Source: Natronobeatus ordinarius
GTDB taxonomy: Archaea; Halobacteriota; Halobacteria; Halobacteriales; Natrialbaceae
Reading direction: 5' to 3'
NCBI RefSeq assembly: GCF_024362485.1
Contig: NZ_CP101456.1
Span: forward strand, 2,046,001-2,110,000
Length of the DNA stretch: 64,000 bases
The notes under the pieces were generated by a model that had not been told where the DNA came from, ran no database searches, and was given only the letters and a program-made list of their open reading frames with translations. The translations under genes and the position numbers were made by a program. Position 1 is the stretch's first letter. Each line of letters begins with the position of its first letter. Below are positions 23,311 through 46,063 of this stretch, in pieces.

Positions 23311-24288
23311 CTACGTTGTGTCACGAAGTGCGTCGTTCAACGCCGGGACGACCTCGTGGAGGTCACCGATGACGGCGTAGTCGGCCTTCTGGATGATCGC
23401 GGCTTCGGGATCGGTGTTGATCGCGAGGAGGGTGTCGGCACCCTTACAGCCGACCATGTGCTGGACGGCGCCGCTGATCCCACAAGCGATGTAGATGTCC
23501 GGGCTGATCTTCGCGCCGGTCTGGCCGACCTGGTCGTCGTGTGGGCGCCAGCCCTCGTTGATCGCGGCCCGCGAGGCCCCGACGGTGCCGCCGAGGAAGT
23601 CGGCCAGTTCCTCGAGCGTGTCGTACTTCTCGGGTCCGCCGACGCCTCGACCACCGCCGACGACGACCCGCGCCTCGCCCAGCGGGATGCCCTCCTCGTC
23701 GGACGTCTCGACCCGGTCGACCCGAACCCGGAAGTGGACGTCCTCGAGCGACGGCGTGAACTCGTCGACCGACGGCTCGATCGTCGTCTCGGCTTCCTCG
23801 ATCGGGAACTCGTGTGCGGCAGCGGTCACGAGCTTCGTGGTGGCCTCGAGTCGGGCGTGCTCGAGTAAGCTGCCGCCCCAGCGGTGGCGGGTCACGTCGT
23901 ACGCCGCGGCGCCGTCGGCGACGTCGATCTCGACGCAGTTGGTCGCCATCGGCGCGTCGAGCGTTGCGCCGACGCGAGCCAGCACGTCGTGCCCGCGGTC
24001 CGTCCCGGGAGCGACGACGGCGCTCGCGTCCAGCTTCGAGCCGAGCTGAGCGACACTTTCGGCCCACGCCTCGGGTGCGTAGCCCTCGAGTCGATCGTGG
24101 CGCACGCAGTGGAGCTCTTCGACGCCGTAGGGGCCGAGTTCCTCCGCCAGGCCGGCCGCCTCGTCGCCGAAAGCGACCACCTCGAGCGCAGTTTCGTGGG
24201 CGTCCGCCAGGTCGCGCGCCATCGTGAGCGCCTCGAGGGAGGGCTCCGCCGGCACGCCGCTCTCGTGTTCGACGAGCGTGAGAGTCAT
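23311..24288 (-). CDS. etfA: electron transfer flavoprotein alpha subunit
   Basis: A 325-residue FAD-binding subunit that accepts electrons from a dehydrogenase and passes them toward the quinone pool through ETF-quinone oxidoreductase. The C-terminal FAD domain is clear: GGGRGVGGPEKYDTLEELA, GASRAAINEGW, QVGQTGAKISPDIYIACGISGA and INTDPEAAIIQKADY. It is the last gene of the leftward oxidoreductase-etfB-etfA operon and overlaps etfB by 4 nt. The neighbouring dimethylglycine-dehydrogenase-like protein is the likely electron donor. Confidence 0.97.
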   Translation of the reverse strand: MTLTLVEHESGVPAEPSLEALTMARDLADAHETALEVVAFGDEAAGLAEELGPYGVEELHCVRHDRLEGYAPEAWAESVAQLGSKLDASAVVAPGTDRGHDVLARVGATLDAPMATNCVEIDVADGAAAYDVTRHRWGGSLLEHARLEATTKLVTAAAHEFPIEEAETTIEPSVDEFTPSLEDVHFRVRVDRVETSDEEGIPLGEARVVVGGGRGVGGPEKYDTLEELADFLGGTVGASRAAINEGWRPHDDQVGQTGAKISPDIYIACGISGAVQHMVGCKGADTLLAINTDPEAAIIQKADYAVIGDLHEVVPALNDALRDTT

Positions 24289-25058
24289 ATCACCTCCACC
24301 TCCTCTTCGAGGACCTCGATCACGTGCGGGACGGCCTCGGCTCCCTCGCCGAGGATCTCAGCGTCGTCGTCGTCTCGCTCGGGTGCCTCGAGGCGGAGCT
24401 TCTCGAGAGAGCCCGCCCCCGTCTCACCCTCGGGTTCGCGGCGGTCGACCGCCGTGCGACGCGCCTGCATCTTCGCACGCATCGAGGCGTAGCGGGGTTC
24501 GTTGATCCCCTCTTTGACCGTGACGATCGCCGGAAGGTCGACCTCGTACACCTCCTCGCCGCCGCCGATCTCGCGTTTCGCGATCGCCGTGCCGTCCTCG
24601 ACCTCGAGGTTTTTGATCCCGGTCACGCAGGGAAGCCCCAGTTCGGTCGCAACGCGGATGCCGACCTGGTAGTTGGCTGCGTCGGCCGACTCGTTGCCAA
24701 ACAGCAGGAGGTCGAACTCGACGCCGTCGTCGGCCAGGGCGTTCACGGCAGTCGCGATGGCGCTCGCGGTCGCACGTGGGGACCACTCCTCGCCGTCGGT
24801 CTCGAGCAGCGTCGCCTCGTCGGCCTGCATGGCCAGCCCCGTCCGGAGCTGTTCGGTCGCCTCGTCGGGACCGAGCGTGAGGACGTGCGCGGCGCCGCCG
24901 TGGGCCTCGACCTGCTGGATGGCCTCCTCGATGGCACACTCCTCGTGGGGGCTCATGGTGAACCCGAGGTTGCTCGCGTCGATTCGCTGTTCGTCGTCGG
25001 TCAGGACGATCTGTGCACCGGTGTTGGGTACCCGTTTGATACAGGCCAATACGTTCAT
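24285..25058 (-). CDS. etfB: electron transfer flavoprotein beta subunit
   Basis: A 257-residue ETF beta subunit that binds AMP and pairs with EtfA. Signatures are the N-terminal MNVLACIKRVPNTGA, the LFGNESADAANYQVG region, and DLPAIVTVKEGINEPRYASM. It lies 51 nt after the large flavoprotein gene and overlaps etfA by 4 nt, so the three are very likely co-transcribed and form one electron-transfer unit. Confidence 0.97.
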   Translation of the reverse strand: MNVLACIKRVPNTGAQIVLTDDEQRIDASNLGFTMSPHEECAIEEAIQQVEAHGGAAHVLTLGPDEATEQLRTGLAMQADEATLLETDGEEWSPRATASAIATAVNALADDGVEFDLLLFGNESADAANYQVGIRVATELGLPCVTGIKNLEVEDGTAIAKREIGGGEEVYEVDLPAIVTVKEGINEPRYASMRAKMQARRTAVDRREPEGETGAGSLEKLRLEAPERDDDDAEILGEGAEAVPHVIEVLEEEVEVI

Positions 25059-25109: not shown

Positions 25110-27644
25110 CTAGCTGCGGATCCGGTCGTTCTCCGGGTCGAACAGCGGTCTGCTGCCGGCGACCTCGACGGTCACCGGGTACTGTTCACCCATGTACTCG
25201 ACCTGCAGGCTGGTACCCTCGTCGGCGTACGCCGGAGGAAGGTAGGCCATCAGCAGGTGTTTGCCGACGCTCGGGCCGGTGCCGGCGCTCGTGACGTAGG
25301 CCTCCCGGCCGTGGTCGTCGACGATGACTTCGCCGTCTTCGTCGAGGACGGGCTCGTTCCCGAGCATGAACCGACGCTCGCCCGACTCGGAGGTGTGGTC
25401 GTCCACCGAGAGGGTACACAGCGTGGCCGCGTTCTCCTCGTCGATGGCCTCGGCGTACGCCTCCTTCCCGATGAAGTCTGACGTCTTGACGCCGTGGAAC
25501 GTCAACCCGGCCTCGGCGGGATTGTACTCGAGCTCGAGTTCGTGGCCGAACAGCCGGTAGCCTTTCTCCATCCGGCCCGTCGTCCCGTAGACGCCCATGC
25601 CGACGGGGCGGATATCGTACTCTGCGCCGGCCTCGGCGATGGTGTCCCAGAGACGCCCGCCTTTCGCGGCCGGGGCGTAGATCTCCCAGCCGAGTTCGCC
25701 GACGTAGGAGAGGCGCATCGCCCAGGCGTCGACCTCGCCGACGGTGAGTTTCTGGGCGGTGTACGGCGGGAAGGCCTCGTGGGAGACGTCTTCCTCGGTC
25801 ACCGAGTCGACGACTGCCCGGGCGTCGGGCCCCCAGACCCCGAGGGTACAGAGCGACTCCGAGCGGTCGATCATCGTGACGTCGGCGTCCTCGGGGATGT
25901 GCCCGCCGAACCAGGCGCGATCCGCCCCGGCCGCGGCGCCGCCGGTGATGACCCGGTACTGTTCGGGCCCGAGCCGGGCGATCGTCAGGTCCGAGACGAA
26001 GCCGCCGTTCTCGGCGAGGATCGGCGTGTAGACGGTCTTGCCGACGTCGACGTCGACCCGGCCGACCGCCATCCGTTCGAGGTAGTCCACGACGTCCGAG
26101 CCGACGAAGTCGAACTTCCCGAAGCCCATGTCGCCGACCATGGCGACGTGGTCGCGCATGTGGAGGTGCTCGCCGAGGATGATCGGCGACCACCACCGTG
26201 CGTCCCACTCGTTGCCCCGGAGCAGTCCCTCGAGTTCCTCGTTGTACGTCCGGACGAGGTCTTCGTTGGACCAGTACCACTGCGGTCGCTCCCAGCCCGC
26301 GGCCTCGAAGAAGCGGGCGTCGAGTTCCTGCTGGCGATCGTAGAACGGGCTCGTCCGCAACGGCCGGGAGCTCTGCCACTGCTCGGCCGGGTGGACGATG
26401 CCGTAGATCTTCTGGAAGCCCTCGTGGGCGCGGTTTTTCACGAACGCTCGCGAGTTTCCGTACTCGTAGAAGCGGTTGACGTCCGAGCCGTGGAGGTCGA
26501 TCTCCGACCAGCCGCGGGTCATCCACTGGGCGACGGCCTCGCCGATCGCCGGCGCCTCCTTGATCCAGACGGCGGCGCACGACCACAGGCCGTCGACGTC
26601 CTGGAGCGGGCCTAAAAGCGGCATGCCGTCGGGAGTCACCGACAGCAGGCCGTCGATCTCGTGGCGGACGCCCGCCTGGGGGTCGTCGAGCAATTCGGGC
26701 ACGATCTCTAAGGCGTCTTCCATCGACTGCTCGAACGCGTCGTCGGTCAGCGGCGGCTGAGTCGGCGACAGCGGCGACTCCTCGATCGACGGCACGTCGT
26801 CGACGTCCCAGAGGATCGGTCGATGCTGGTAGGAGCCGACCTCGAGATCGTTGCCGTGCTGGCGCTCGTACATCTGGGTGTCCATATCGCGCACGACGGG
26901 GAAGGAAATCTCACCCTCGTACTCCTCGAAAAAGGAGATCGGCCCGACGCTCACCATCTGGTGGACTGCAGGCGTCAGCGGGATCTCGACGCCGGCCATC
27001 TCGGCGATTTTCGGGCTCCACAGCCCCGCGGCGATGACGACCTCGTCGGCCTCGACGGTGCCGCGATCGGTCTCGACCGCCTGGATCGCCCCGCCCTCGA
27101 CGTGTACGTCGAGTACCACGGTGTTCGGCGAGACGGTCAGACCGCCGTCGGTCGCGTGGTCCGCTCGAGCCCGCATCACTTCGCCGGCCCGCAGCGGGTC
27201 ACAGGTGCCGGCGCCCTCGCTGTAGAAGCCGCCCTTGATGACGTCCGTGTTGACGTACGGCACCAGCTCTTCGATCTCTTCGACGTCGAGGAGTCGGCCC
27301 TTCTCGCCCCAGGCTTTCGCCGACTGGACGCGTCGCTCGAGTTCGGCCATCCGTTCGTCGGTGCGGGCCACCTCGATCCCGCCGCTGTTGACGAACGTGT
27401 CCATGTCCTCGTACTGCTCGATGCTCCGCCGGGTGAGGTGGGTCATCTCCTTTGCGTGCTCGACGGGCATGAGGAAGTTCGAGGCGTGGCCCGTCGAGCC
27501 ACCCGGGTCCGGCAGCGGCCCCTTGTCCAGCAGCAGGATGTCCGCTCGTCCTTCCTCTGCGAGGTGGTACGCGAGGCTGTTCCCGACGATTCCAGCCCCG
27601 ATAATGACGGTCTCCGCGGACGACGGGAAGTCACTGGAGCTCAT
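25110..27644 (-). CDS. dimethylglycine/sarcosine dehydrogenase-like FAD-GcvT protein
   Basis: An 844-residue two-part enzyme. Residues 1-380 form a DAO-type flavoprotein with VIIGAGIVGNSLAYHLAE at the FAD site and GSTGHASN (His53), aligned with the covalent-FAD His of dimethylglycine and sarcosine dehydrogenases. Residues about 420-830 are a GcvT-type tetrahydrofolate-binding module (DMGFGKFDFVG, GELGWEIYAP, KGYRLFGHELELEYNPAEAGL). Such enzymes oxidatively demethylate dimethylglycine or sarcosine and trap the carbon as 5,10-methylene-THF, with ETF as acceptor. etfB and etfA follow directly. Which N-methyl substrate is used cannot be told from sequence. Confidence 0.9.
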   Translation of the reverse strand: MSSSDFPSSAETVIIGAGIVGNSLAYHLAEEGRADILLLDKGPLPDPGGSTGHASNFLMPVEHAKEMTHLTRRSIEQYEDMDTFVNSGGIEVARTDERMAELERRVQSAKAWGEKGRLLDVEEIEELVPYVNTDVIKGGFYSEGAGTCDPLRAGEVMRARADHATDGGLTVSPNTVVLDVHVEGGAIQAVETDRGTVEADEVVIAAGLWSPKIAEMAGVEIPLTPAVHQMVSVGPISFFEEYEGEISFPVVRDMDTQMYERQHGNDLEVGSYQHRPILWDVDDVPSIEESPLSPTQPPLTDDAFEQSMEDALEIVPELLDDPQAGVRHEIDGLLSVTPDGMPLLGPLQDVDGLWSCAAVWIKEAPAIGEAVAQWMTRGWSEIDLHGSDVNRFYEYGNSRAFVKNRAHEGFQKIYGIVHPAEQWQSSRPLRTSPFYDRQQELDARFFEAAGWERPQWYWSNEDLVRTYNEELEGLLRGNEWDARWWSPIILGEHLHMRDHVAMVGDMGFGKFDFVGSDVVDYLERMAVGRVDVDVGKTVYTPILAENGGFVSDLTIARLGPEQYRVITGGAAAGADRAWFGGHIPEDADVTMIDRSESLCTLGVWGPDARAVVDSVTEEDVSHEAFPPYTAQKLTVGEVDAWAMRLSYVGELGWEIYAPAAKGGRLWDTIAEAGAEYDIRPVGMGVYGTTGRMEKGYRLFGHELELEYNPAEAGLTFHGVKTSDFIGKEAYAEAIDEENAATLCTLSVDDHTSESGERRFMLGNEPVLDEDGEVIVDDHGREAYVTSAGTGPSVGKHLLMAYLPPAYADEGTSLQVEYMGEQYPVTVEVAGSRPLFDPENDRIRS

Positions 27645-28009
27645 CGACGACCCCCGCCGTTGGCCGTCGACGGCTGTCCGATACCAGGTGTCCGATCTGT
27701 GAGTCTCGGGACTCGGTTCTCACCACTCACTATCATCTTCGTTATATAGAGAACACCTCGCAGACCATAAAAAGACAACATAAATGGCAGATTCATTATG
27801 AGACGAGCGAGAGCGGCTGAGCCGATCGGAGATCGGACCGGCCAGCGGACCACCGATTCCAAATCCTGACAGGAGAGTGCCACCTTGTGGTTTGGGCCAC
27901 GTCCGCTGTCCCGGTGTTTCGCGTCGGACGGTTCACAGTCGTCCACGTCGCATACGGAACGCTACGGGTACGTCAACACTTATGCCCACGTCGCGAAAAC
28001 CTCGTCAGT
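27645..28009. promoter_or_regulatory. divergent control region, flavoprotein operon / fhs
   Basis: No gene is seen. A leftward TATA-like element lies in GTTATATAGAG (27741-27751), which would give a leader of roughly 75 nt for the flavoprotein gene. On the plus strand, CACTTATG (27977-27984) is about 29 nt before the fhs ATG. The middle (27745-27800) is AT-rich and could hold regulator sites. The two directions serve the same one-carbon pathway. Confidence 0.5.
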
Positions 28010-29728
28010 ATGGCTTCCCAAGACGGGGACGACGGATCGATGCCGACCGACTACGAGATCGCACAGGACGCCGAGAAACGACCAATCGCGGACGTCATTG
28101 CGCCGTTCGGGCTCGAGCGAGACGATCTGGAGCTACTCGGCGAACACAAGGCGAAGGTGCGACTCGAGGCGATCGAGCGGCTCCGGGAGGGGGGTGATCC
28201 CGACGGCAAGCTCGTCCTCGTCACCGGGATGACGCCGACGCCGCTGGGCGAGGGGAAGACGGTGACGACGGTCGGGCTCGGCCAGGCGTTCAACCAGCTC
28301 GAGGAGGACGCGGCCGTCGCGATCCGCGAGCCGTCGCTCGGGCCGGTGTTCGGCGTGAAAGGCGGGGCGGCCGGCGGGGGCTACTCGCAGGTGCTCCCGA
28401 TGGAGGACATCAACCTCCACTTCACGGGGGACCTCCACGCGCTCACGTCGGCGCACAATCTCATCGCCACGATGCTCGATAACCACATCAAGCAGGGCAA
28501 CGAGCTCGACGTCGCGGTCAACTGGATCAACTGGCCGCGGGCGATCGACATGAACGACCGCGTCCTGCGCGAGACGGTCGTCGGGCTCGGCGGCGAGGTC
28601 ACCGGCGTGCCCCGCGAGGACGGCTTCGTCCTGACCGCGGCCTCGGAGCTGATGGCCGTCCTCTGTCTCGCCGACGGCATCGCGGACCTCAAGGCACGCC
28701 TCGCCCGGATCATCGTCGCCTACGACGGGGACGGCGACCCCGTTACCGTCGACGACATCGGGGCGACGGGCGCCGCCGCGATTCTGCTGAAAGACGCGCT
28801 GAAACCCAACGTCGTCCAGACAATCGAGGGGACGCCGGCGTTCGTCCACGGCGGCCCCTTCGCGAACATCGCCCACGGGACCAACTCGTTGATCGCCGAC
28901 GAGGTCGCCGCCCACTGCGCCGAGTACGTCATCACCGAGGCCGGCTTCGGCTCCGACCTCGGCGCCGAGAAGTTCATGAACATCGTCTGCCGACTCGGCG
29001 ACCTCGAGCCCGACGCGGTCACGATCGTCGCCTCGGTACGGGCGCTCAAGTACCACGGCCAGGACATGTGGCCGCCCGACGTCGACGCGCTCGAGGCCGA
29101 GGACGTCGACGCCGTCCACCGGGGACTCGAGAACCTCGACAAGCACGTCAACAACTTACGGCAGTTCGGCGTCCCGGTGGTCGTCGCCGTCAACCGCTTC
29201 CCGACGGACACCGACGCGGAGATCGAGGCGGTCCTCGACCACTGCGAGGACGACCTCGGCGTGCCGGCCGCTGAATCGACCGTCTTCGAAGACGGCGGCG
29301 AGGGCGGCCTCGAGCTCGCCGAACGCCTCGTGGAGGCCGCCGAGTCAGCGTCAACGTTCGAGCCGCTGTACGAGCTCGAGGCCCCCATCGACGAGAAGAT
29401 CGAAACCGTCGCCACCGAGATCTACGGCGCCGACGGCGTCGAGTTCCACGGCGACGCGAGAGACGACATCGAGCGGCTCACCGGCCTGGGCTTCGACGAC
29501 GTGCCGATCTGCATGTCGAAGACGTTCCACTCGCTCAGCGACGACGCGAGCCAGAAAGGCGTCCCGGAAGACTGGACGCTCGAGGTGAAAGAGATCTACC
29601 CCTCGGCGGGGGCCGGCTTCCTCGTCGTGCTCACCGCGGACGTCCTCACGCTCCCCGGCCTGCCCTCGGAGCCGGCGGCCGCCGGCATGGATCTCCACGA
29701 CGACGGCAGCGTCTCCGGGTTGTTCTAG
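28010..29728 (+). CDS. fhs: formate-tetrahydrofolate ligase
   Basis: A 572-residue cytoplasmic enzyme that interconverts formate, ATP and THF with 10-formyl-THF. Run in reverse it yields ATP from formyl-THF, useful when methyl groups are oxidised. It has the P-loop TPTPLGEGKTVTT (about residue 80), EPSLGPVFGVKGGAAGGGYSQV, NLHFTGDLHA and NRFPTDTDAEI. I start at ATG 28010 (MASQDGDDGS), placed for a leaderless transcript. Its stop shares the CTAG tetranucleotide with the stop of the convergent BCCT gene. Confidence 0.97.
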   Translation: MASQDGDDGSMPTDYEIAQDAEKRPIADVIAPFGLERDDLELLGEHKAKVRLEAIERLREGGDPDGKLVLVTGMTPTPLGEGKTVTTVGLGQAFNQLEEDAAVAIREPSLGPVFGVKGGAAGGGYSQVLPMEDINLHFTGDLHALTSAHNLIATMLDNHIKQGNELDVAVNWINWPRAIDMNDRVLRETVVGLGGEVTGVPREDGFVLTAASELMAVLCLADGIADLKARLARIIVAYDGDGDPVTVDDIGATGAAAILLKDALKPNVVQTIEGTPAFVHGGPFANIAHGTNSLIADEVAAHCAEYVITEAGFGSDLGAEKFMNIVCRLGDLEPDAVTIVASVRALKYHGQDMWPPDVDALEAEDVDAVHRGLENLDKHVNNLRQFGVPVVVAVNRFPTDTDAEIEAVLDHCEDDLGVPAAESTVFEDGGEGGLELAERLVEAAESASTFEPLYELEAPIDEKIETVATEIYGADGVEFHGDARDDIERLTGLGFDDVPICMSKTFHSLSDDASQKGVPEDWTLEVKEIYPSAGAGFLVVLTADVLTLPGLPSEPAAAGMDLHDDGSVSGLF

Positions 29729-31572
29729 TCCTCGCCCTCGTCCCCATCCCGGACGCTCGCGCGAGCGGCGCCGAGGCTCGACCGTCGACCGCGCTCGTGT
29801 CGGTAGAACGAGCCGGCGAGTCCCGCGAGCGCGACGAGGACGACCAGGGCGAACGGGCCGCCGGCCAGCACGGCCATCGCCTGCAGGACCTCGACGCTGT
29901 CGGTGACCAGCACGGAGACGGCGACGAGCCCCTGGACGATCCCCCAGAAGACGACCGCGCCGGTCGTCGGAGCGTGCTCGCGTCTCGTCGTCAGCACCGC
30001 CACGACGAGCGTGGAGGTGTCGGCTGACGTCGCCATGAAGACGACGATCAGCGCCAGAAAGAGGAACATGAGCAGCCGACTCAGCGAGAGCGCCTCGAAG
30101 ATCGGGAAGCCGGCGACGGCCTCGGCGCCGCCGTGGGCGTCGATCGCCGCGAGGACGTCGACGTCGCCGGCGTGCTGGAGGGAAAGCGAGGTCGAGCCCA
30201 GCAGGAGAAACCAGGCCATCGTCGCGAGCGAGGTCGCGACGAAGCCCGTGAGGACGACGGTCCGAATCCGTCGCCCCCGCGAGAGCGCCGCCAGGAAGAG
30301 GCCGGCAAATGGCGCCCAGGAGAGCCACCACGCCCAGTTCCAGATCGTCCAGTTCGCGACCCAGTCGTCGGCGATCGGTCCGTTACCGAGGTGGACGCTC
30401 AACGGGACGAACTCGAGGGCGTAGCCACCGACCGCGCGCGAACTGGTCTCGAGGACGAACGCACGGGGCGCAACGAGCAGGAACAGCGCGGCGAACAGGC
30501 CGAAGAGGGCGACGTTCACGCCCGCGAGCCGCCGGATCCCCCGGTGGACGCCGCTCTGGGCGGAGGCGACGAAGACGATCGTCAGTCCCGCGACGAACAG
30601 CAGCGAGCCGCCCGTCTCGAGGGCCACGTCCCACTGGAAGTCGATCCCGGTGAGGAACTGCTCGCCGACGAGCGCGATGGAGGTGGCGATGCCGCCGATG
30701 GTCGCGAACACCGCGAGCAGGTCGACGAGCCGACACCACGGCGAGTCGAGATTTTCGACGCCGAGAAACGGCGTCAGGATCGACGAGACTCGCAGCGGCG
30801 CGCCCCGCTGGTAGACGTAGTAGGCGATGGGGACGCCGACGGCGACGTAGGCGCTCCAGGCCGAAAAGCCCCAGTGAAACAGCGCGTAGACGAGCGCGGC
30901 GTCGACGGCGGCCTCCGATCGGGCTGGGGCGTCGACGTGCGGGGGCGGCGTCTCGTAGTGGAACAGCGCCTCGGCCGGCCCCCAGAAGACGATGCCGGCG
31001 GCGATCCCCGCGGTGAAGAACATGGTGAAGTAGACGGGGTAGGTGTAGGCGGGCTCCGCGTCCGGGCCGCCGAGTTTGATCGCGCCCCACGGCCCCACGA
31101 GCAGGGCCAGACAGCACAAAAGCGAGAGGAGCACGACGGCGGTGAACAGCCAGCCGGCGTTGGTCGTGACCAGCGCCTGTGCCGTGCCGACGGCGGCGAC
31201 GGTGCCATCCGGAGCGAGTAGCTGGCCGGCGAAAAAGAGCGCGAAGACGACGAGGGGGATCCCGGCCGTGACGGGATCCTGGCGGGCGCAGAACGCGCCG
31301 ACGGTGTCGGCGATGGAGCGATGGCGAACCGACAGCAACAGCTGGGCCTCGGTCGGCTCGGCGTCGGCGTCCGCCGGCAACACGGCGAGGTACGTCAGCC
31401 CGGAGCCGAAAAAGAGCAGTGAGACGACGAGCCACGCCCGGCCGGAGACGGTCTCGCCGACGAGCTCGGGGAAGAAAAACCCCGAGACGACGATTACGCC
31501 GGAGAGGACACAGAGCGGGCCCAGCAGCTTTCGGAGCAACCGTTCGACGACGCCGACACCCTGGAGTCCCAT
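29725..31572 (-). CDS. BCCT-family osmolyte transporter
   Basis: A 615-residue membrane transporter with about 12 helices, of the betaine/carnitine/choline family, which takes up quaternary-ammonium osmolytes coupled to Na+ or H+. Family landmarks are FTAGIAAGIVFWGPAEALFHY (TM3 region), HWGFSAWSAYVAVG and the Trp-rich WAWWLSWAPFAGLFLAALSRGR. I start at ATG 31572 (MGLQGVGVVERLL); the long upstream in-frame extension is an artefact overlapping the K+ channel gene. An N-terminal region of about 70 residues, and the TM3 variant GIAAGIVFW instead of GMGIGLMF, set it apart from the second BCCT at 34394. Confidence 0.92.
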   Translation of the reverse strand: MGLQGVGVVERLLRKLLGPLCVLSGVIVVSGFFFPELVGETVSGRAWLVVSLLFFGSGLTYLAVLPADADAEPTEAQLLLSVRHRSIADTVGAFCARQDPVTAGIPLVVFALFFAGQLLAPDGTVAAVGTAQALVTTNAGWLFTAVVLLSLLCCLALLVGPWGAIKLGGPDAEPAYTYPVYFTMFFTAGIAAGIVFWGPAEALFHYETPPPHVDAPARSEAAVDAALVYALFHWGFSAWSAYVAVGVPIAYYVYQRGAPLRVSSILTPFLGVENLDSPWCRLVDLLAVFATIGGIATSIALVGEQFLTGIDFQWDVALETGGSLLFVAGLTIVFVASAQSGVHRGIRRLAGVNVALFGLFAALFLLVAPRAFVLETSSRAVGGYALEFVPLSVHLGNGPIADDWVANWTIWNWAWWLSWAPFAGLFLAALSRGRRIRTVVLTGFVATSLATMAWFLLLGSTSLSLQHAGDVDVLAAIDAHGGAEAVAGFPIFEALSLSRLLMFLFLALIVVFMATSADTSTLVVAVLTTRREHAPTTGAVVFWGIVQGLVAVSVLVTDSVEVLQAMAVLAGGPFALVVLVALAGLAGSFYRHERGRRSSLGAARASVRDGDEGED

Positions 31573-34393: not shown

Positions 34394-36193
34394 TCAGTCG
34401 CCGACGTCGACGTCGACGACCCGGTCGTCTCTGGTTCTGACCTCGGTCACGAGGTCGCCTCGCTGGGTCGTGACGACGACCTCGTCTTCGTCCTCGAGGT
34501 CGTCGATCAACTCGTTGAACTCGTCGGACTGGAGGATCCTGTACTCCCGTTTGAGTCCCTGCCTCACCGCGTAGATCATGAACAGCAGGATCACCACGAA
34601 CGGGAGGCCGCTGGCGATGGCGGCCGCCTGGAGCGCCTCGATGGCCGCGTCACCGCCGGCGACCAGGAGTGCAGCGGCGACGAGTCCCTCGGAGGCGGCC
34701 CAGAAGACGCGCCCGGCTGCCGGCGTCTCGTGTTTGCCGCCGGTACTCAGGTGCTCGAGGACGAGCGAGCCCGAGTCCGAGGAGGTAACGAAGAAGGTCG
34801 TGACGAGGACGATCGCGAGGATCGACAGAATCACCGTGCCCGGCATGGCGTCGAACATCGCGAACATCGCGACCTCGAGGCCGACGTCGAACATCGGGCC
34901 GCTGACCACGCCGGCGGTCTCCTCGCCCAGTTCGAAGTTGAGGGCGGTGCCGCCCATCGCTGCGAACCAGGCGAACGAGAAGACGACGGGGATCAGGAGC
35001 ACGCCGCCGACGAATTCGCGGATGGTGCGTCCCTTCGAGATGCGGGCGATGAACATCCCGACGAACGGCGACCAGGAGATCCACCAGGCCCAGTAGAACA
35101 CCGTCCAGTCGACGAGGAACTCGCCTTCGCCTTCACCGCCGGGACCGTAGAACTCAGAGCCCTGGAAGTAGTGGTTGTCGAAGCTGTTGCCGAAAAAGGA
35201 CAGCTCGAAGAAGTTGCCGATGTAGGCGCCGATCCCCTGTGGCAACGCACCCAGGATGAACAGCGTCGGGCCGAGGACGAACACCGACGCGAGCAACAGC
35301 ATCATCAGCGTGAGGTTCAGGTTGCTGAGCCGTCGAATCCCTTTGTCGAGGCCGAGGTAGACCGAGACGATCGCCAGCCCCGTGACCACGGCGATGATCG
35401 CGACGGCGACCCAGGTGGCGTCCGGGACGGCGGGGAACGTGCCCACCTCGTCGCCGACGAACGTCAGTCCCGCGTTGATCTGCAACGCGCCCAGTCCGAG
35501 CGAGGTCACGAGGCCGAACAGCGTCGCGAAGATGGTGAAGATGTCGATGACGTGGCCCGGCCAGCCGTAGATCCGCTCCCCGAGCACCGGGTAGAAGACC
35601 GACCGGAACGTCAGCGGCAGCCCGCGGTTGTACGAGAAGAAGGCGAGGCCGAGCGCGACCAGCGCGTAGATCGCCCACGGATGAAAGCCCCAGTGGAACA
35701 GCGACACGGCCAGCGCCACTTCGCCGGCGCCTTCGGTTCCCGCTTCGGCGCCCAGGTGCGGATCGAACAGGTGGAAGACGGGTTCGGCGACGCCGAAGAA
35801 CATCAGCCCGATCCCCATCCCCGCGCTGAACAGCATCGCGATCCACGAAATGTCGCTGAACTCCTTCTCGCCGTCGACCCCGCCGAGGCGGATCACGCCG
35901 TACTTGCTGATCGCGAGGTAGACCATGAAGATGATGAAGACGTTCGCCGCCAGGATGAACAGCCAGTCGAAGTAGTCCGAAATCGCGACGCGAGCGTCCT
36001 GATAGACCGTCCCCGCCTGGTCCGGAAACGCGAGCGAGAGGACGATGAACAGGACGATCAACCCGCCCGCGACGAGAAAGACGGGTGGATTGATGTCGAA
36101 TCCGTATCCCTGCCAGTTTCTGTCGCCCGGTTCTCTACTCGTGTCTGCGTGAAACAGTTCTCCCTGTATTCCTCGTTTGCCTTCATCTGCCAT
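34394..36193 (-). CDS. BCCT-family glycine betaine-type transporter
   Basis: A 599-residue transporter with 12 predicted helices. It holds the canonical BCCT core: MLFSAGMGIGLMFFGVAEPVFH, FHWGFHPWAIYALV, YWAWWISWSPFVGMFIARISKGR and FFVTSSDSGSLVLEHLSTGG. The long hydrophilic C-terminus (ILQSDEFNELIDDLEDEDEV) may act as an osmosensor, as in BetP. I start at ATG 36193 (MADEGKRGI); a strong AT-rich TATA-like stretch lies near 36376-36388, implying a leader of about 150 nt, and no gene is seen in 36194-36480. It likely imports betaine, choline, DMSP or a similar onium compound. Confidence 0.94.
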   Translation of the reverse strand: MADEGKRGIQGELFHADTSREPGDRNWQGYGFDINPPVFLVAGGLIVLFIVLSLAFPDQAGTVYQDARVAISDYFDWLFILAANVFIIFMVYLAISKYGVIRLGGVDGEKEFSDISWIAMLFSAGMGIGLMFFGVAEPVFHLFDPHLGAEAGTEGAGEVALAVSLFHWGFHPWAIYALVALGLAFFSYNRGLPLTFRSVFYPVLGERIYGWPGHVIDIFTIFATLFGLVTSLGLGALQINAGLTFVGDEVGTFPAVPDATWVAVAIIAVVTGLAIVSVYLGLDKGIRRLSNLNLTLMMLLLASVFVLGPTLFILGALPQGIGAYIGNFFELSFFGNSFDNHYFQGSEFYGPGGEGEGEFLVDWTVFYWAWWISWSPFVGMFIARISKGRTIREFVGGVLLIPVVFSFAWFAAMGGTALNFELGEETAGVVSGPMFDVGLEVAMFAMFDAMPGTVILSILAIVLVTTFFVTSSDSGSLVLEHLSTGGKHETPAAGRVFWAASEGLVAAALLVAGGDAAIEALQAAAIASGLPFVVILLFMIYAVRQGLKREYRILQSDEFNELIDDLEDEDEVVVTTQRGDLVTEVRTRDDRVVDVDVGD

Positions 36194-37478: not shown

Positions 37479-38855
37479 ATGTCCGGCAACGAACCGCCAC
37501 AGACGGAGAGTCAGGATCATCCGAACTACCCGAGCGTCGACCAGTCCGACCGGGTACTGCCGCGAAACCTGCGTCAGTCCGGCGATCCAGGTATCGAGAT
37601 GCTCGTTTCGACGCGCGTTCGCAAGTCGCCGTTCTTCCACAAGTCGTTCGTGGAGAACGGCGCCTGGCGGGCGACGGTGTACAACCGGATCTACCACCCG
37701 CGGGGGATGCTCGAGCCCGAGGAGGGTGGGATGATGGCCGAGTACGACGCGCTCGTCAACCACGTGACGCTGTGGGACGTCGCGGTCGAACGCCAGATTC
37801 GCGTGAAAGGGCCCGACGCCGAGGCGCTCACGAACTACGTCATCACCCGCGATGCGACCGAGATCGAGCCGATGCGCGGCAAGTACGTCATCCTCTGTAA
37901 CGAGGACGGCGGCATCCTCAACGATCCCGTCTTGTTGCGCCCGGGCGAGGACGAGTTCTGGTTCTCGATCTCGGACTCGACGCTGATGCAGTGGCTCCAG
38001 GGCGTGAACGTCGGGATGGACTTCGACGTCGAGATCGACGAGATCGACGTCGCGCCGATGCAGATCCAGGGCCCGAAGTCGGTCGACGTGATGGTCGAGA
38101 TCGTCGGCGACGAGGTCGAAGAGATCCCCTACTACGGGCTGATGGAAGCGGAAGTCGACGGCGTCCCCGTACTGGTGAGCCAGACCGGCTTCTCCGGCGA
38201 GAAAGGCTTCGAGATCTACGTGAAGGATGCGTCGAAGAACGCCGAACGCATCTGGGATCCGGTCCTCGAGTCCGTCCGCGACCACGGCGGCATGCAGGTC
38301 GCCCCCGCCCACCACCGCCGGATCGCCGCGGGCATCCTCTCGTGGGGCCAGGACATGGACCACGAGACGTCGCCGTTCCAGGTCAACCTCGGCTATCAGG
38401 TGCCCGACGACAAAGACGCAGAGTACATCGGCAAGGAGGAACTCGAGCGCCAGCAGGAGCTGATCGACGAGGGCGAGTACCCCTTCGTCCACAAGCTGGT
38501 CGGTCTCAAGCTGGCCGGCGAACCGATCAGGGACTACGCGCCCGATTTCTGGCTCATCTCCGAACCCGACAGCGACGAGCCCTGTGGCTACGTCACGTCG
38601 CCGTGGCACAACCCCGAACTCGAGACGAACCTCGCGCTCGGCTTCGTCCCGGCCGAGACGCTCGACGGCGACCCGATGGCGGTCTACGACGGCGACATCG
38701 AGACGGAGTACCAGGTCCACCTGCCCGACGAGTACGCAGAAGAGCCCGGCGAGCCGGTGTACGCCAAAGTCTCGGAGGTGCCGTTCAAGCCCTCGGTCAA
38801 CCCGAGCGCCCGCGAGCAGGCGAAACTCCACGCCAAGGAGGACGCGTCGGAGTGA
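37479..38855 (+). CDS. DmdA-like GcvT-family demethylase
   Basis: A 458-residue cytoplasmic protein of the aminomethyltransferase fold. Its core resembles DMSP demethylase DmdA more than glycine-cleavage T protein: TVYNRIYHPRGM, LWDVAVERQIRVKGPDA, GGILNDPVLLRPGEDEFWFS, DVAPMQIQGPKSVDVM and GFSGEKGFEIYV all align with DmdA blocks from memory. Extra residues lie at both ends relative to a DmdA of about 370 aa. DmdA moves a methyl group from dimethylsulfoniopropionate to THF, giving 5-methyl-THF; a metF-type gene follows. The real substrate could be another sulfonium or ammonium compound. The name dmdA is withheld because the substrate is unproven. Confidence 0.8.
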   Translation: MSGNEPPQTESQDHPNYPSVDQSDRVLPRNLRQSGDPGIEMLVSTRVRKSPFFHKSFVENGAWRATVYNRIYHPRGMLEPEEGGMMAEYDALVNHVTLWDVAVERQIRVKGPDAEALTNYVITRDATEIEPMRGKYVILCNEDGGILNDPVLLRPGEDEFWFSISDSTLMQWLQGVNVGMDFDVEIDEIDVAPMQIQGPKSVDVMVEIVGDEVEEIPYYGLMEAEVDGVPVLVSQTGFSGEKGFEIYVKDASKNAERIWDPVLESVRDHGGMQVAPAHHRRIAAGILSWGQDMDHETSPFQVNLGYQVPDDKDAEYIGKEELERQQELIDEGEYPFVHKLVGLKLAGEPIRDYAPDFWLISEPDSDEPCGYVTSPWHNPELETNLALGFVPAETLDGDPMAVYDGDIETEYQVHLPDEYAEEPGEPVYAKVSEVPFKPSVNPSAREQAKLHAKEDASE

Positions 38856-38980: not shown

Positions 38981-39847
38981 ATGGCCTCAGAAATACAGTC
39001 GATCCCGACGGCCGAAGGCGTCGTTTCCCTCCTCGAGGAGCCACGCTTCGAACTGATGCCGTTCGAGAGCATGGACGAGCAACTCGAGTACCTGCCCGAC
39101 GGCGCCGAGGTCGCCATCACCACCTCGCCGACGCTCGGCCTCGAGGCGACGATCGAGTGGACCGAGCGCGCGAGCGAGCGCGGCTACGAGGTCGTCCCCC
39201 ACGTCGCGGCGCGCTACGTTCGCGACGAGGCGCACCTCGAGGAGCTCGCCGGGCGACTCACCGACGCTGGTGTCACCGACATTTTCGTCCCGGGCGGCGA
39301 CCGCGAGGAACCCGTCGGTGAGTTCACCTCGGCGTACGAGTTCCTGTCGACGCTCGAGGAGCTGGACTACGCGTTCGAGGAGGTCGGAATCACCGGCTAT
39401 CCCGAGGGTCACTCGTTCCTCGACGACCAGGTTCTCGCCGAGTCGATGGCGAAGAAAGAACCCTACGCTACGTACGTCGTGACGCAGCTGTGTTACGATC
39501 CCGACACCATCCTCGAGTGGATCGCCGAGATTCGCGAGCGCAGCGTCGACCTGCCCGTCGAGGTTGGCGTTCCGGGCGTCATGAAGTACCAGCGACTGCT
39601 GACCATCTCGAAGAAGGTGGGCGTTGGCGATTCGGTTCGCTTCCTCCAGAAGACGAGCGGCCTCCTCGGCTTCGTCCGACACCTCGTCGGCTCCCGGGGA
39701 ACGTACGTTCCTGAACCGCTCATCGAGGGGCTCGCGCCGTACGCCACCGACCCGTACTACGACGTCCGTGGAGTCCACATCTACGCGTTCAACCAGGTGC
39801 CGGATCTCGAGTCGTGGCGATCGGAGACGCTGGGTCGGTATCGGTGA
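38981..39847 (+). CDS. metF: methylenetetrahydrofolate reductase-like
   Basis: A 288-residue TIM-barrel flavoprotein of the MetF family, interconverting 5-methyl-THF and 5,10-methylene-THF. Aligned features are FELMPFES (the N-terminal acid), VPGGDREEP (flavin-binding loop), TQLCYDPDTILEWI (compare TQFFFD in MetF) and VGVPGVMKYQRLLTISKKVGV. It lies 125 nt downstream of the DmdA-like gene. The pairing suggests it oxidises the methyl-THF made there, a reversed direction relative to methionine synthesis; this is inference. Confidence 0.85.
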   Translation: MASEIQSIPTAEGVVSLLEEPRFELMPFESMDEQLEYLPDGAEVAITTSPTLGLEATIEWTERASERGYEVVPHVAARYVRDEAHLEELAGRLTDAGVTDIFVPGGDREEPVGEFTSAYEFLSTLEELDYAFEEVGITGYPEGHSFLDDQVLAESMAKKEPYATYVVTQLCYDPDTILEWIAEIRERSVDLPVEVGVPGVMKYQRLLTISKKVGVGDSVRFLQKTSGLLGFVRHLVGSRGTYVPEPLIEGLAPYATDPYYDVRGVHIYAFNQVPDLESWRSETLGRYR

Positions 39848-40822: not shown

Positions 40823-41791
40823 ATGCTACAAGCGCAGGCCCCACGAAGTCGATACGTGTCGACTGAACTGCTCCGTGGCGCGCCGATCGCAACCGCCGTC
40901 CTCGAGTCGGTCGACGAGCGAGTCGCTGACCTCGCCGAACGGGGTGTGACCCCGACGCTCGCGACGGTGCTGATGAGCGACGAGCCGGCCGACGAGCGGT
41001 TCGTGGCGCTGAAACACGAGACGTGCGCCGACGTCGGCATCGACACTCGAGACGTCCGCCTCGAGCCCGACCATCCGGCAGCGCGCCTCTCCCGTGTGAT
41101 CGAGGACGTGTGTAACGATCCCGGAGTCGACGCCGTCTTCGTCCAGGCCCCACTCCCCGATCACGTGCCGCTGTCCGCGGTCCGGACGCGGATCGATCCC
41201 GCGAAAGACGTCGACTGTTTTCACCCCGAGAATCTCGGCCGGCTGGTCGCAGACGATCCCCGGTTCGTACCGGCCACGCCCGCGGCCGTGTGTCGGCTCC
41301 TCGAGTGGCACGACGTGGCGGTCGCGGGGGCCGACGTCGTGATCGTGGGTCGGTCCGAGCCGATCGGGAAGCCGCTGGCGAATTACCTGCTCCGGGACGA
41401 TCCGTGCGGAAACGCCACCGTTACGGTCTGTCACTCACACACGGCGAATCTCGCGTCGGTCACCCGCCGCGCGGACGTCCTCGTGACCGCCGCCGGCGTC
41501 CCCGAACTCGTCGATGGCTCGATGCTCTCGCCGGGCGTCGTGGTCGTCGACGTGAGCGTGAACCGTCGCCCGTCGAGCGCGTCGACCGGGGACCACTCGA
41601 GCGCTCGAGTCCCCACGGAATCGACGGGTAGAACAGCCTCGAGGGTGGTCGGCGACGTCGCGTTCGAGAGTGCACGGGAGAAGGCGAGTGCGATCACGCC
41701 CGTTCCCGGCGGCGTCGGTCCGGTAACGCTCGCGATGCTGGCCCAAAACGTCGTTCGCGCTTCCGAGCGACGGGCTGGAGACGAGCCATAG
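40823..41791 (+). CDS. folD: FolD-type methylene-THF dehydrogenase/cyclohydrolase, variant active site
   Basis: A 322-residue FolD family protein linking methylene-THF to formyl-THF. Conserved are Lys64 (VALKHE), Gln108 (VQAPLP), Asp131 (KDVD), GRSEPIGKP and PVPGGVGPVT. Two positions differ from the E. coli enzyme: the active-site Tyr (YVASK) is Phe60, and the Gly after the catalytic Asp (DVDGF) is Cys132. A hydrophilic insert of about 20 residues precedes VVGDVAF. The start ATG 40823 was chosen by homology; upstream in-frame sequence overlaps cysE. Whether both activities remain is uncertain. Confidence 0.9.
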   Translation: MLQAQAPRSRYVSTELLRGAPIATAVLESVDERVADLAERGVTPTLATVLMSDEPADERFVALKHETCADVGIDTRDVRLEPDHPAARLSRVIEDVCNDPGVDAVFVQAPLPDHVPLSAVRTRIDPAKDVDCFHPENLGRLVADDPRFVPATPAAVCRLLEWHDVAVAGADVVIVGRSEPIGKPLANYLLRDDPCGNATVTVCHSHTANLASVTRRADVLVTAAGVPELVDGSMLSPGVVVVDVSVNRRPSSASTGDHSSARVPTESTGRTASRVVGDVAFESAREKASAITPVPGGVGPVTLAMLAQNVVRASERRAGDEP

Positions 41792-42381: not shown

Positions 42382-43383
42382 TCACGGCGCTGGCTGCGTC
42401 GCGGAGACCTGGCGGAGTCGCGCGACGATTTCCTCGCGACCGATGTCTCGCTCGTGTTCCCTGGCGAGTCGGCCGACCACGAGATCGACCAGGTTCAGCC
42501 GTCGCAACAGCTCGAGCGTCTCCTCGCGGTCGAGCCCGACGTCCTGTCCGACTTCGTAGATCGTGTTCGATCGCGAGACTGACTCGACGAGGACGTCGAG
42601 ACTCACCCCGTCGGGAAGTCCGATTCCGTCGGTGAGTACGACCGGCGGCTGGTCGGCTTCTCGCTCCGATTCCGAACGCGTCTCCGGACGCTCCGCAGCG
42701 TTCGTCACCGTTTCGGAATCGGGTTCGGGTTCGACGTCGTCCTCCGATTTGTCGTCTTCACCCGAGTCGGTATCGTACGAGTTCGGCTCGTGGATCCCGT
42801 GGTCGATCATGTACCGCCGAACGGTTTCGGCGGTGACGTCCATCTCGATCACCTCGGCCATCTCGGCGAACGTCTCACAGGAGTCGTACACCGACGCGAG
42901 CAGTTCTGGATCCCTGAACGGCGGCCGGTTTCGCCTGCGAGTGCCGGCCGGTCCGTCGTCAGCACTGCTGGAAGCCGAGCGCTGACTCGAGGATCGGGCA
43001 CGCGCTGTGGACTCCTCGGCCGCGGTCGGCTGACTCCCGTTCGGGACGGACGCGTCGAGTGCGACTGTAATCGTCCCGTCACCGGTGATCGTCGCCTCGG
43101 CCGGCTCCAGTTCCAGCCCGTGGTCGGACGCCGGGACGACGGGAACCGCCGACTCGAGGACGAGCTGGAGGCGGCCGTCGCTGTCGAGTTCGACGGTTGC
43201 GGGTGCGACGCCGTCCACTCCGTTGGCTGCTGGTTTCATCGAGATGGTCAGCTCGACGTCGGCAGTGAGCCCGGGTTCCGAATCGACACCTTCGGTGACC
43301 TCGACCGCGTGTACGGTGCCACCTTCACCCTCACACGCCTCGAGAAACGCACCCATCTTCCGAAGATTGCTACCAACACCCAT
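42382..43383 (-). CDS. hypothetical protein with helix-turn-helix-like region
   Basis: A 333-residue protein of unclear role. Residues 1-120 form a mainly beta domain (VELTISMKP ... ITVALDASV). A low-complexity Ser/Arg linker follows, then a likely HTH, FRDPELLASVYDSCETFAEMA with DVTAETVRRYMIDHGIHEP. After an acidic linker comes a second helical segment (VSRSNTIYEVGQDVGLDREETLELLRRLNLVDLVVGRLA) that also resembles an HTH. It looks like a haloarchaeal transcription factor. A TATA-like ATTTAT on the minus strand (43424-43430) is about 43 nt upstream. Confidence 0.7.
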   Translation of the reverse strand: MGVGSNLRKMGAFLEACEGEGGTVHAVEVTEGVDSEPGLTADVELTISMKPAANGVDGVAPATVELDSDGRLQLVLESAVPVVPASDHGLELEPAEATITGDGTITVALDASVPNGSQPTAAEESTARARSSSQRSASSSADDGPAGTRRRNRPPFRDPELLASVYDSCETFAEMAEVIEMDVTAETVRRYMIDHGIHEPNSYDTDSGEDDKSEDDVEPEPDSETVTNAAERPETRSESEREADQPPVVLTDGIGLPDGVSLDVLVESVSRSNTIYEVGQDVGLDREETLELLRRLNLVDLVVGRLAREHERDIGREEIVARLRQVSATQPAP

Positions 43384-44675: not shown

Positions 44676-44840
44676 ATGAGCACAGTTGACTGGACGTCAG
44701 GACGAACCGGAACGACCGTCGAGACGGGCTGTGACCTCCCCTCCCAGTACGGGCGATTCGATCCCGGGACCGTCACCGGGCGACCGCCGTTCGACGCGAC
44801 ACAGAGTGCCCACGCCGTTGCAGTTCGCGAAAACCGATGA
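44676..44840 (+). CDS. small protein (54 aa) coupled to ilvA
   Basis: Begins MSTVDWTSGRTGTTVETGCD and ends AVAVRENR. Two signs support translation: TATTTA (44644-44649) is about 29 nt before the ATG, and the stop TGA overlaps the ilvA start as ATGA (44837-44840). It may be a real micro-protein or a leader peptide that couples translation to ilvA. No homology is recognised. Confidence 0.6.
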   Translation: MSTVDWTSGRTGTTVETGCDLPSQYGRFDPGTVTGRPPFDATQSAHAVAVRENR

Positions 44841-46063
44841 GCCGAGATCACGTCCCCCTCGAGTTCGCGGACATCGAGGCCGCCCGCGACCGACTCGACG
44901 ACGAGTCGGTGGTCAGACGCACGCCGGTCGAGCGAAGCACCTCACTCGACGATCTCACCGGCGGCGAGGTGCACCTCAAGATGGAGCACCTCCAGTGGAC
45001 GGGATCGTTCAAAACGCGCGGGGCGTACAACAAGATCGCTCAGTGTGGCGACGACGTCGACCGGGTCGTCGCCGCGAGCGCCGGGAACCACGCCCAGGGC
45101 GTCGCCCTCGCGGCGACGACCCTCGGTGTCGGGTCGACCATCGTCATGCCGCGGACGGCACCCCAGGCAAAAGTCGACGCGACCCGCGGCTACGGGGCGG
45201 ACGTCGAACTCGTCGGCACTGACTTCCGGGAGGCGATGGCCCACGCGAAAGAGCTCACCGGCGACGGCACCGCGTTCGTCCACGCTTACGACGATCCCGC
45301 AATCGTCGCCGGCCAGGGCACGCTGGGGATCGAGATGCACGAGGACCTCCCCGACGTCGACACCGTCGTTGTCCCCATCGGCGGGGGTGGGCTCATCTCG
45401 GGTATCGCCACCGCGTTCGCCGAACGCTCCCCGGAGACGCGCGTCGTCGGCGTTCAGGCCAGCGGCGCCGCGACCGTTCCGGATAGCTTACAGAAGGGGA
45501 ACCCGATCTCGCTCGAGTCGGTGAACACGATCGCGGACGGCATCGCCACCGGCGGCGTCTCGGAGCTGACGCTGTCGCTCATCGAGGAGCACGTCGACGA
45601 GGTCGTGACGGTCACCGACGGCGAGATCGCCCGGGCGATCTTGCTGTTGCTCGAGCGAGCCAAGCAGGTCGTCGAGGGAGCCGGCGCGGCGTCAGTCGCC
45701 GCCGTCATCAGTGACGGGCTCGACGTGGAGGGCGAGACGGTGATGCCGTTGCTCTGTGGCGGCAACCTCGACATGACGATGCTCCAGACGGTCCTGGTGC
45801 ACGCGCTGACCGACCGCGAACAGCTGTTGCGCCTGCGCGTTCGCATCACCGACCAGCCCGGAAAGTTAGAGGAAATTTCGGGGGTCATCGCCGGACACAA
45901 CGCCAACATTCAGACGGTTCGCCACGACCGCTCGGCGCCCGAACTCGACGTCGGCGAGGCCTACCTCGTCTTCCAGATCGAGACCAGCGGCGCGGGACAG
46001 GCTCGAGCCCTCATCCGAACGATCCGAAGCCACGGCTACGAGGTCAGGCACGTCAACGCCTGA
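44837..46063 (+). CDS. ilvA: threonine ammonia-lyase with ACT domain
   Basis: A 408-residue PLP enzyme that deaminates threonine to 2-oxobutyrate, the entry to isoleucine synthesis. The PLP Lys59 lies in TGSFKTRGAYNK; the phosphate-binding loop is VPIGGGGLISGIA. The C-terminal ~80 residues (RLRVRITDQPGKLEEIS onward) form an ACT domain for amino-acid feedback. The single ACT resembles the shorter ThrD-II type rather than E. coli IlvA with its two regulatory units. It overlaps the upstream small gene by 4 nt. Confidence 0.95.
   Translation: MSRDHVPLEFADIEAARDRLDDESVVRRTPVERSTSLDDLTGGEVHLKMEHLQWTGSFKTRGAYNKIAQCGDDVDRVVAASAGNHAQGVALAATTLGVGSTIVMPRTAPQAKVDATRGYGADVELVGTDFREAMAHAKELTGDGTAFVHAYDDPAIVAGQGTLGIEMHEDLPDVDTVVVPIGGGGLISGIATAFAERSPETRVVGVQASGAATVPDSLQKGNPISLESVNTIADGIATGGVSELTLSLIEEHVDEVVTVTDGEIARAILLLLERAKQVVEGAGAASVAAVISDGLDVEGETVMPLLCGGNLDMTMLQTVLVHALTDREQLLRLRVRITDQPGKLEEISGVIAGHNANIQTVRHDRSAPELDVGEAYLVFQIETSGAGQARALIRTIRSHGYEVRHVNA

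Follow-up and report, generated by a model that had tools for sequence, protein, structure and literature searches.

Saline waters and the sea contain glycine betaine as a major compatible solute. The enzymes known to remove the methyl group considered here, BHMT, GbcAB, and MtgB, belong to families unrelated to the protein described below and use homocysteine, O2 (Rieske), and a corrinoid, respectively, whereas we propose direct transfer to THF. In haloarchaea, dimethylglycine oxidase and BCCT genes have been seen but the first demethylation step has not (Anderson et al. 2011, PMC3102087), and no enzyme has been named for it. Use of glycine betaine has also been reported for SAR11 bacteria (PMC3160333, PMC4744692), in which its conversion to dimethylglycine is currently assigned to BHMT; in our view this assignment is hard to reconcile with a bulk use of betaine carbon, because one methionine would be formed per betaine.

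Several THF-dependent demethylases with the GcvT fold are also described, i.e. DmdA (3tfh; NCBIfam model NF009133), the aryl O-demethylases LigM and DesA, and Tdm; the last three show low identity to the protein studied here and act on other substrates. Candidatus Pelagibacter ubique, which lacks metE and metH (PMC5069961), encodes an aminomethyltransferase beside metF, SAR11_1265, whose function was guessed to be a second DMSP demethylation (Sun et al., PMC3160333). In the part of the open-access literature that we searched, no report of an enzyme demethylating glycine betaine onto THF was found. Here we describe a 458-residue protein of Natronobeatus ordinarius that, judged from its context, is probably such an enzyme.

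The gene and its neighborhood

The window is the whole stretch of 64,000 nucleotides that was analyzed. The following features are referred to in the text (coordinates within the window, strand, description).

23311–24288, minus: electron transfer flavoprotein alpha subunit (PF00766 and PF01012)
24285–25058, minus: electron transfer flavoprotein beta-like subunit (PF01012)
25110–27644, minus: dimethylglycine/sarcosine dehydrogenase-like (DMGDH-like) flavoprotein (DAO + FAO_M + GCV_T + GCV_T_C)
27887–29728, plus: formate-THF ligase (FTHFS; PF01268, E = 1.3e-244)
29725–31572, minus: second BCCT transporter (domain and family matches)
34394–36193, minus: BCCT transporter, betaine/carnitine/choline family (domain and family matches)
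37479–38855, plus: DmdA-like, putatively THF-dependent demethylase of 458 aa with a GCV_T fold, proposed glycine betaine demethylase
37533–37583, plus: N-terminal extension motif SVDQSDRVLPRNLRQSG (aa 19–35), characteristic of the family and lacking in DmdA and GcvT
37920–37925, plus: codons of N148-D149, the DmdA-type Asn and the Asp aligned with D96 of T. maritima GcvT
38184–38216, plus: codons of TGFSGEKGFEI (aa 236–246), with F238/G240/E241 against [WY]/K/Q in canonical DmdA
38981–39847, plus: MTHFR-like reductase, proposed to convert 5-methyl-THF to 5,10-methylene-THF (PF02219)
40823–41791, plus: FolD, methylene-THF dehydrogenase/cyclohydrolase (domain and family matches)
44837–46063, plus: IlvA-type threonine/serine ammonia-lyase, through which serine is proposed to leave as pyruvate; a recurrent neighbor of haloarchaeal DmdA-like genes

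The open reading frame at 37479–38855 is a genuine gene, as indicated by its codon-position G+C (0.67/0.37/0.91), the acidic composition of the encoded protein, a GCV_T domain (E = 7.7e-43), and homologues with 67–91% identity in other haloarchaeal genomes. Both sequence blocks quoted in the earlier note, LWDVAVERQIRVKGPDA and GGILNDPVLLRPGEDEFWFS, lie within its translation. The window also encodes, at 42382–43383 (minus strand), a 333-residue protein with no Pfam match, possibly a regulator, homologues of which recur near the cluster in other haloarchaea.

Comparison with DmdA and GcvT

The earlier note described the protein as DmdA-like rather than GcvT-like, in an archaeon, and this description is borne out by a modest margin. 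Among NCBIfam models, DmdA (NF009133) ranks first with 239 bits, compared with 153 bits for the best GcvT model; the best PDB sequence match is 3tfh, the DmdA of P. ubique (E = 2.6e-44; T. maritima GcvT gives 4e-41), which is also the best fold match of the predicted structure; and canonical DmdA shares on average 32% identity with the protein, compared with 28% for haloarchaeal GcvT. The scores nevertheless fall below the curated cut-offs of both families (410 bits for DmdA; 300 and 235.85 bits for the two GcvT models, which give 153 and 131 bits). No NF009133 match of at least 410 bits was found in 292 haloarchaeal genomes, and such matches are present in 12 of 18 bacterial genomes.

In family trees, a single long-stemmed group with 100% support unites the haloarchaeal proteins and their bacterial relatives. 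Both trees place this group inside the DmdA group, and its union with the canonical DmdA clade is rejected in each (p-AU 0.009 and 0.003). In the GcvT-rooted tree the family stands apart from the GcvT clade (support 100/100), but a placement with the GcvT side survives the AU test (p-AU 0.65 and 0.47). A firm rooting inside the DmdA group was therefore dropped, and the family may branch either inside that group or beside it.

It is highly improbable that the protein is a GcvT-like aminomethyltransferase with 5,10-methylene-THF as its product, or that it assists the flavoprotein by binding THF. The GCV_T domain, the SGE-G loop, which resembles the TGEDG of GcvT, and the tree test just mentioned agree with this idea, but the DMGDH-like protein has a GCV_T domain of its own, and the nearly obligatory MTHFR partner described below points to 5-methyl-THF, not methylene-THF, as the product. 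The position corresponding to N148 is Asn in every row of the DmdA group and Asp in GcvT, so that the Asp-Asp pair of the GcvT motif G-I-I-D-D is N148-D149 here. This pair, the scores, and a separate GcvT-type gene in the host genome (C1:3877531, 31% identity to the 458-residue protein) led us to reject a duplicate of GcvT.

A family shared with alphaproteobacteria and SAR11

Relatives from alphaproteobacteria and SAR11 are 56–65% identical to the 458-residue protein over more than 430 residues and carry the same N-terminal motif and C-terminal tail. The N- and C-terminal extensions, which the earlier note had pointed out as being of unknown role, are thus real and conserved; within the former, SVDQSDRxxPxNLRQ(S/T)G is nearly invariant across 30 family members, SAR11 included. 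Since the extensions are common to haloarchaeal, alphaproteobacterial, and SAR11 members, they are hallmarks of the family and not local additions. The predicted structure recovers the GCV_T fold, with pLDDT below 50 for residues 1–45, a value that is uninformative on the N-terminal extension because the alignment rows lacked it.

The SAR11 orthologues are 56–57% identical over 440 residues, possess both extensions, and overlap metF, the MTHFR gene. Likewise, the 458-residue protein combines full-length homology, the VDQSDRxxPxNLRQ(S/T)G motif, the C-terminal tail, and an adjacent metF/MTHFR gene. These sequence comparisons strongly support its membership of a family separate from canonical DmdA and common to haloarchaea, alphaproteobacteria, and SAR11. 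On the basis of the metF neighbor, rather than of the HTCC1062 sequence, the SAR11 member is very probably SAR11_1265, although the evidence presented here favors glycine betaine over the second DMSP methyl group of the published guess. Another candidate for SAR11_1265, a clade with members in Lichenihabitans, Loktanella, and many Pelagibacteraceae (Clade C, L065–L144), was dropped, as the 456-residue SAR11 proteins adjoining metF are the real orthologues. The first tree nests the haloarchaeal sequences inside the bacterial ones; as the AU test is also compatible with all bacterial members in one clade (p-AU 0.63), any transfer between the domains may have gone either way.

Conserved residues

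Y136, D149, and E245 are the conserved equivalents of Y83, D96, and E195 of T. maritima GcvT, which we take to be folate-contacting residues; folate binding is therefore expected. N148 and Y247 match the DmdA group and not GcvT, and the protein shares with DmdA the fold, the THF-binding positions, the Asn-Asp pair, and the equivalent of Y206. It differs from DmdA in being about 80–90 residues longer and in the DmdA-group motif SG[WY]SKQGG, which is SGFSGE[KA]G in the family: F238, G240, and E241 are present in 30 of 30 family rows, where DmdA rows carry [WY], K, and Q. Likewise, the protein has A283, Q301, and N303 at positions that are almost always Glu, Glu, and Gly elsewhere in the alignment. 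The substrate pocket is thus probably changed relative to DmdA. W171, tied to DMSP binding in DmdA by Hernandez et al. (PMC7487153), maps onto W197 of 3tfh in our alignment and corresponds to Phe in all 30 family members. As Tyr occupies this position in 14 of 16 canonical DmdA rows, the Phe alone is weak evidence against DMSP, and we abandoned this residue as a decisive one.

These results bear on the DMSP demethylase identity that the earlier note had suggested. BCCT carriers can import DMSP, DmdA is the best characterized relative by sequence and fold, and the MTHFR/FolD/FTHFS route would serve DMSP methyl groups equally well; in addition, a related but separate clade from Marivivens occurs in a dmdBCD operon. 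The protein would then be a diverged archaeal DmdA, a sulfonium demethylase yielding methylmercaptopropionate and 5-methyl-THF. We consider this improbable: the score is below the DmdA cut-off, the canonical clade is rejected, the SKQGG motif with its DmdA-type [WY]/K/Q loop is lost, and dmdBCD was found neither in the window nor among the orthologue neighbors examined. Moreover, the tight link to DMGDH described below would be left unexplained, and two SAR11 genomes (G307 and G308) hold a true DmdA besides a member of the present family. Of the outcomes that the earlier note had set against its own proposal, a clade other than DmdA and the loss of residues at the DMSP head group were thus largely observed, whereas placement within GcvT was not. 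Membership among DMSP demethylases was rejected accordingly, and the idea is retained as a rival of low probability.

Co-occurrence in haloarchaea

In order to relate the family to other genes, we compared 292 haloarchaeal genomes, 68 with and 224 without the DmdA-like protein. A DMGDH-like protein is encoded in 68/68 of the former and 31/224 of the latter (Fisher p = 1e-42), and MTHFR in 68/68 and 3/224 (p = 1.5e-63), p-values that overstate the association because the genomes are related and not independent samples. The DmdA-like and DMGDH-like genes lie at most 30 kb apart in 61 of the 68 genomes, and the DmdA-like protein and MTHFR are present or absent together within about ten genera. 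The 31 genomes with DMGDH but not the DmdA-like protein indicate that another route into DMGDH exists in haloarchaea.

Two of the three genomes having MTHFR without the DmdA-like protein encode a DesA/LigM-like THF-dependent O-demethylase in the MTHFR locus, which thus stands in for the family near MTHFR. MTHFR being tied to THF-dependent demethylases in this way, the haloarchaeal enzyme seems to consume 5-methyl-THF. The two DesA/LigM-like (syringate/vanillate O-demethylase) GcvT-fold proteins (L217:15794–17185 and L219:7806–9374, both minus strand) have MTHFR, FolD, and PurU nearby, and the loci are possibly archaeal aryl O-demethylation loci. In the third genome (G280, L218:6952–7875), MTHFR lies beside tryptophanase with no nearby THF-dependent demethylase, an unexplained exception to the pattern.

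Neighborhoods of orthologues

The gene set of the window is found again around the orthologues of Haloarcula, Salinigranum, Halomicrococcus, Halobellus, and Haladaptatus, frequently on plasmids; a few haloarchaea (e.g. G002, G029, and G047) have the gene outside the betaine cluster. A plasmid of Haloarcula hispanica encodes a copy with 75% identity. A 29-kb plasmid stretch of Haladaptatus salinisoli (L222:1–29356) carries FolD, FTHFS, formate dehydrogenase, GlyA, MTHFR, two DMGDH-like proteins, IlvA, and BCCT together with FolP and PabAB, and so covers almost every step from betaine uptake to formate dehydrogenase, plus folate synthesis. Alphaproteobacterial loci encode MTHFR, FTHFS, serine dehydratase, DMGDH, and a regulator of AraC/DJ-1 architecture, the type of GbdR, the glycine betaine regulator of Pseudomonas. 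One SAR11 locus includes, besides the orthologue, OpuAC, an ABC permease, BHMT, and dimethylglycine dehydrogenase. An MttB-family gene is also present in the Halomicrococcus locus.

Another quaternary amine, such as proline betaine, carnitine, trigonelline, or beta-alanine betaine, could feed the same C1 pool, glycine betaine being handled by another enzyme. Several betaines are substrates of BCCT and OpuAC systems, the Haloarcula marismortui cluster includes a Rieske oxygenase, and sequence alone cannot give the substrate; furthermore, BHMT, encoded beside an orthologue, already serves the conversion of glycine betaine in SAR11, where the family member could accordingly act on another betaine. 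This alternative appears unlikely, as the dimethylglycine/sarcosine dehydrogenase, GlyA, and serine/threonine dehydratase of the clusters fit glycine betaine best, and no recurring gene set for the breakdown of proline, carnitine, or a pyridine ring was seen among the orthologue neighborhoods examined. Counting against glycine betaine, no benefit from, or growth on, betaine was reported for H. walsbyi and H. utahensis (PMC3102087).

Proposed pathway

Within the genome of N. ordinarius, searches for PF02574 (BHMT, homocysteine S-methyltransferase), PF00848 (Rieske alpha), and PF06253 (MttB) gave no match, although the same searches recover these families in control genomes; a SAR11 BHMT used as query, in a search run without a positive control, gave none either. 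The routes through BHMT, GbcAB, and MtgB were thus not found in the host, and the DmdA-like protein is the only candidate seen there for the conversion of glycine betaine to dimethylglycine.

In the pathway that we favor, glycine betaine would be taken up through the BCCT transporters and bound beside THF in the GcvT/DmdA fold. With DmdA as the model for the chemistry, a redox-neutral transfer is predicted, in which N5 of THF would accept one N-methyl group directly, so that dimethylglycine and 5-methyl-THF would be formed with no need for cobalamin, homocysteine, or oxygen. The flavoprotein, assumed to act on dimethylglycine as well as sarcosine, would convert both to glycine, with ETF as the electron acceptor and the C1 units captured by THF as 5,10-methylene-THF. 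An oxidative MTHFR would bring 5-methyl-THF into the 5,10-methylene-THF pool, a step that would require an acceptor with a suitable potential; FolD and formate-THF ligase would then turn the C1 unit into formate and ATP, and glycine would leave via serine to pyruvate. The metF of P. ubique fits such an oxidative role, as it cannot feed the absent metE and metH.

With somewhat more reserve than for the substrate of the N. ordinarius protein, we favor the view that a direct transfer of the methyl group of glycine betaine onto THF, with no cobalamin involved, is a new activity in haloarchaea, alphaproteobacteria, and SAR11, with a haloarchaeal betaine-to-pyruvate cassette that is often plasmid-borne. 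If so, a THF-dependent demethylase would close the gaps in haloarchaea and SAR11, give the SAR11 orphan gene a function, and explain the presence of metF in a bacterium without metE and metH; genes of this family should then not be counted as dmdA in DMSP surveys.

Related loci

Haloarchaea also encode paralogues of about 67% identity (haloB; L057:12028–13395 and L221:7214–8395), surrounded by TusA, DsrE, YeeE/YedE, TauE, or sulfurtransferase genes and no C1 genes. Given this proximity to sulfur-transfer genes, the paralogues may differ in substrate, perhaps acting on a sulfur compound. On a Marivivens plasmid (L062:9998–15157), the first gene of the dmdBCD operon is a diverged DmdA scoring 360 bits against the cut-off of 410; the curated model thus probably misses real bacterial relatives of DmdA. 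Finally, a trio encoding a DUF3726 protein, a 550-residue protein whose SAR11 copy matches no Pfam family, and a membrane dipeptidase (M19) adjoins the SAR11 orthologue (L175:4996–8249, L176:11189–14424, and L063:7638–10977), and a similar trio is annotated beside the DmdA of Phaeobacter.
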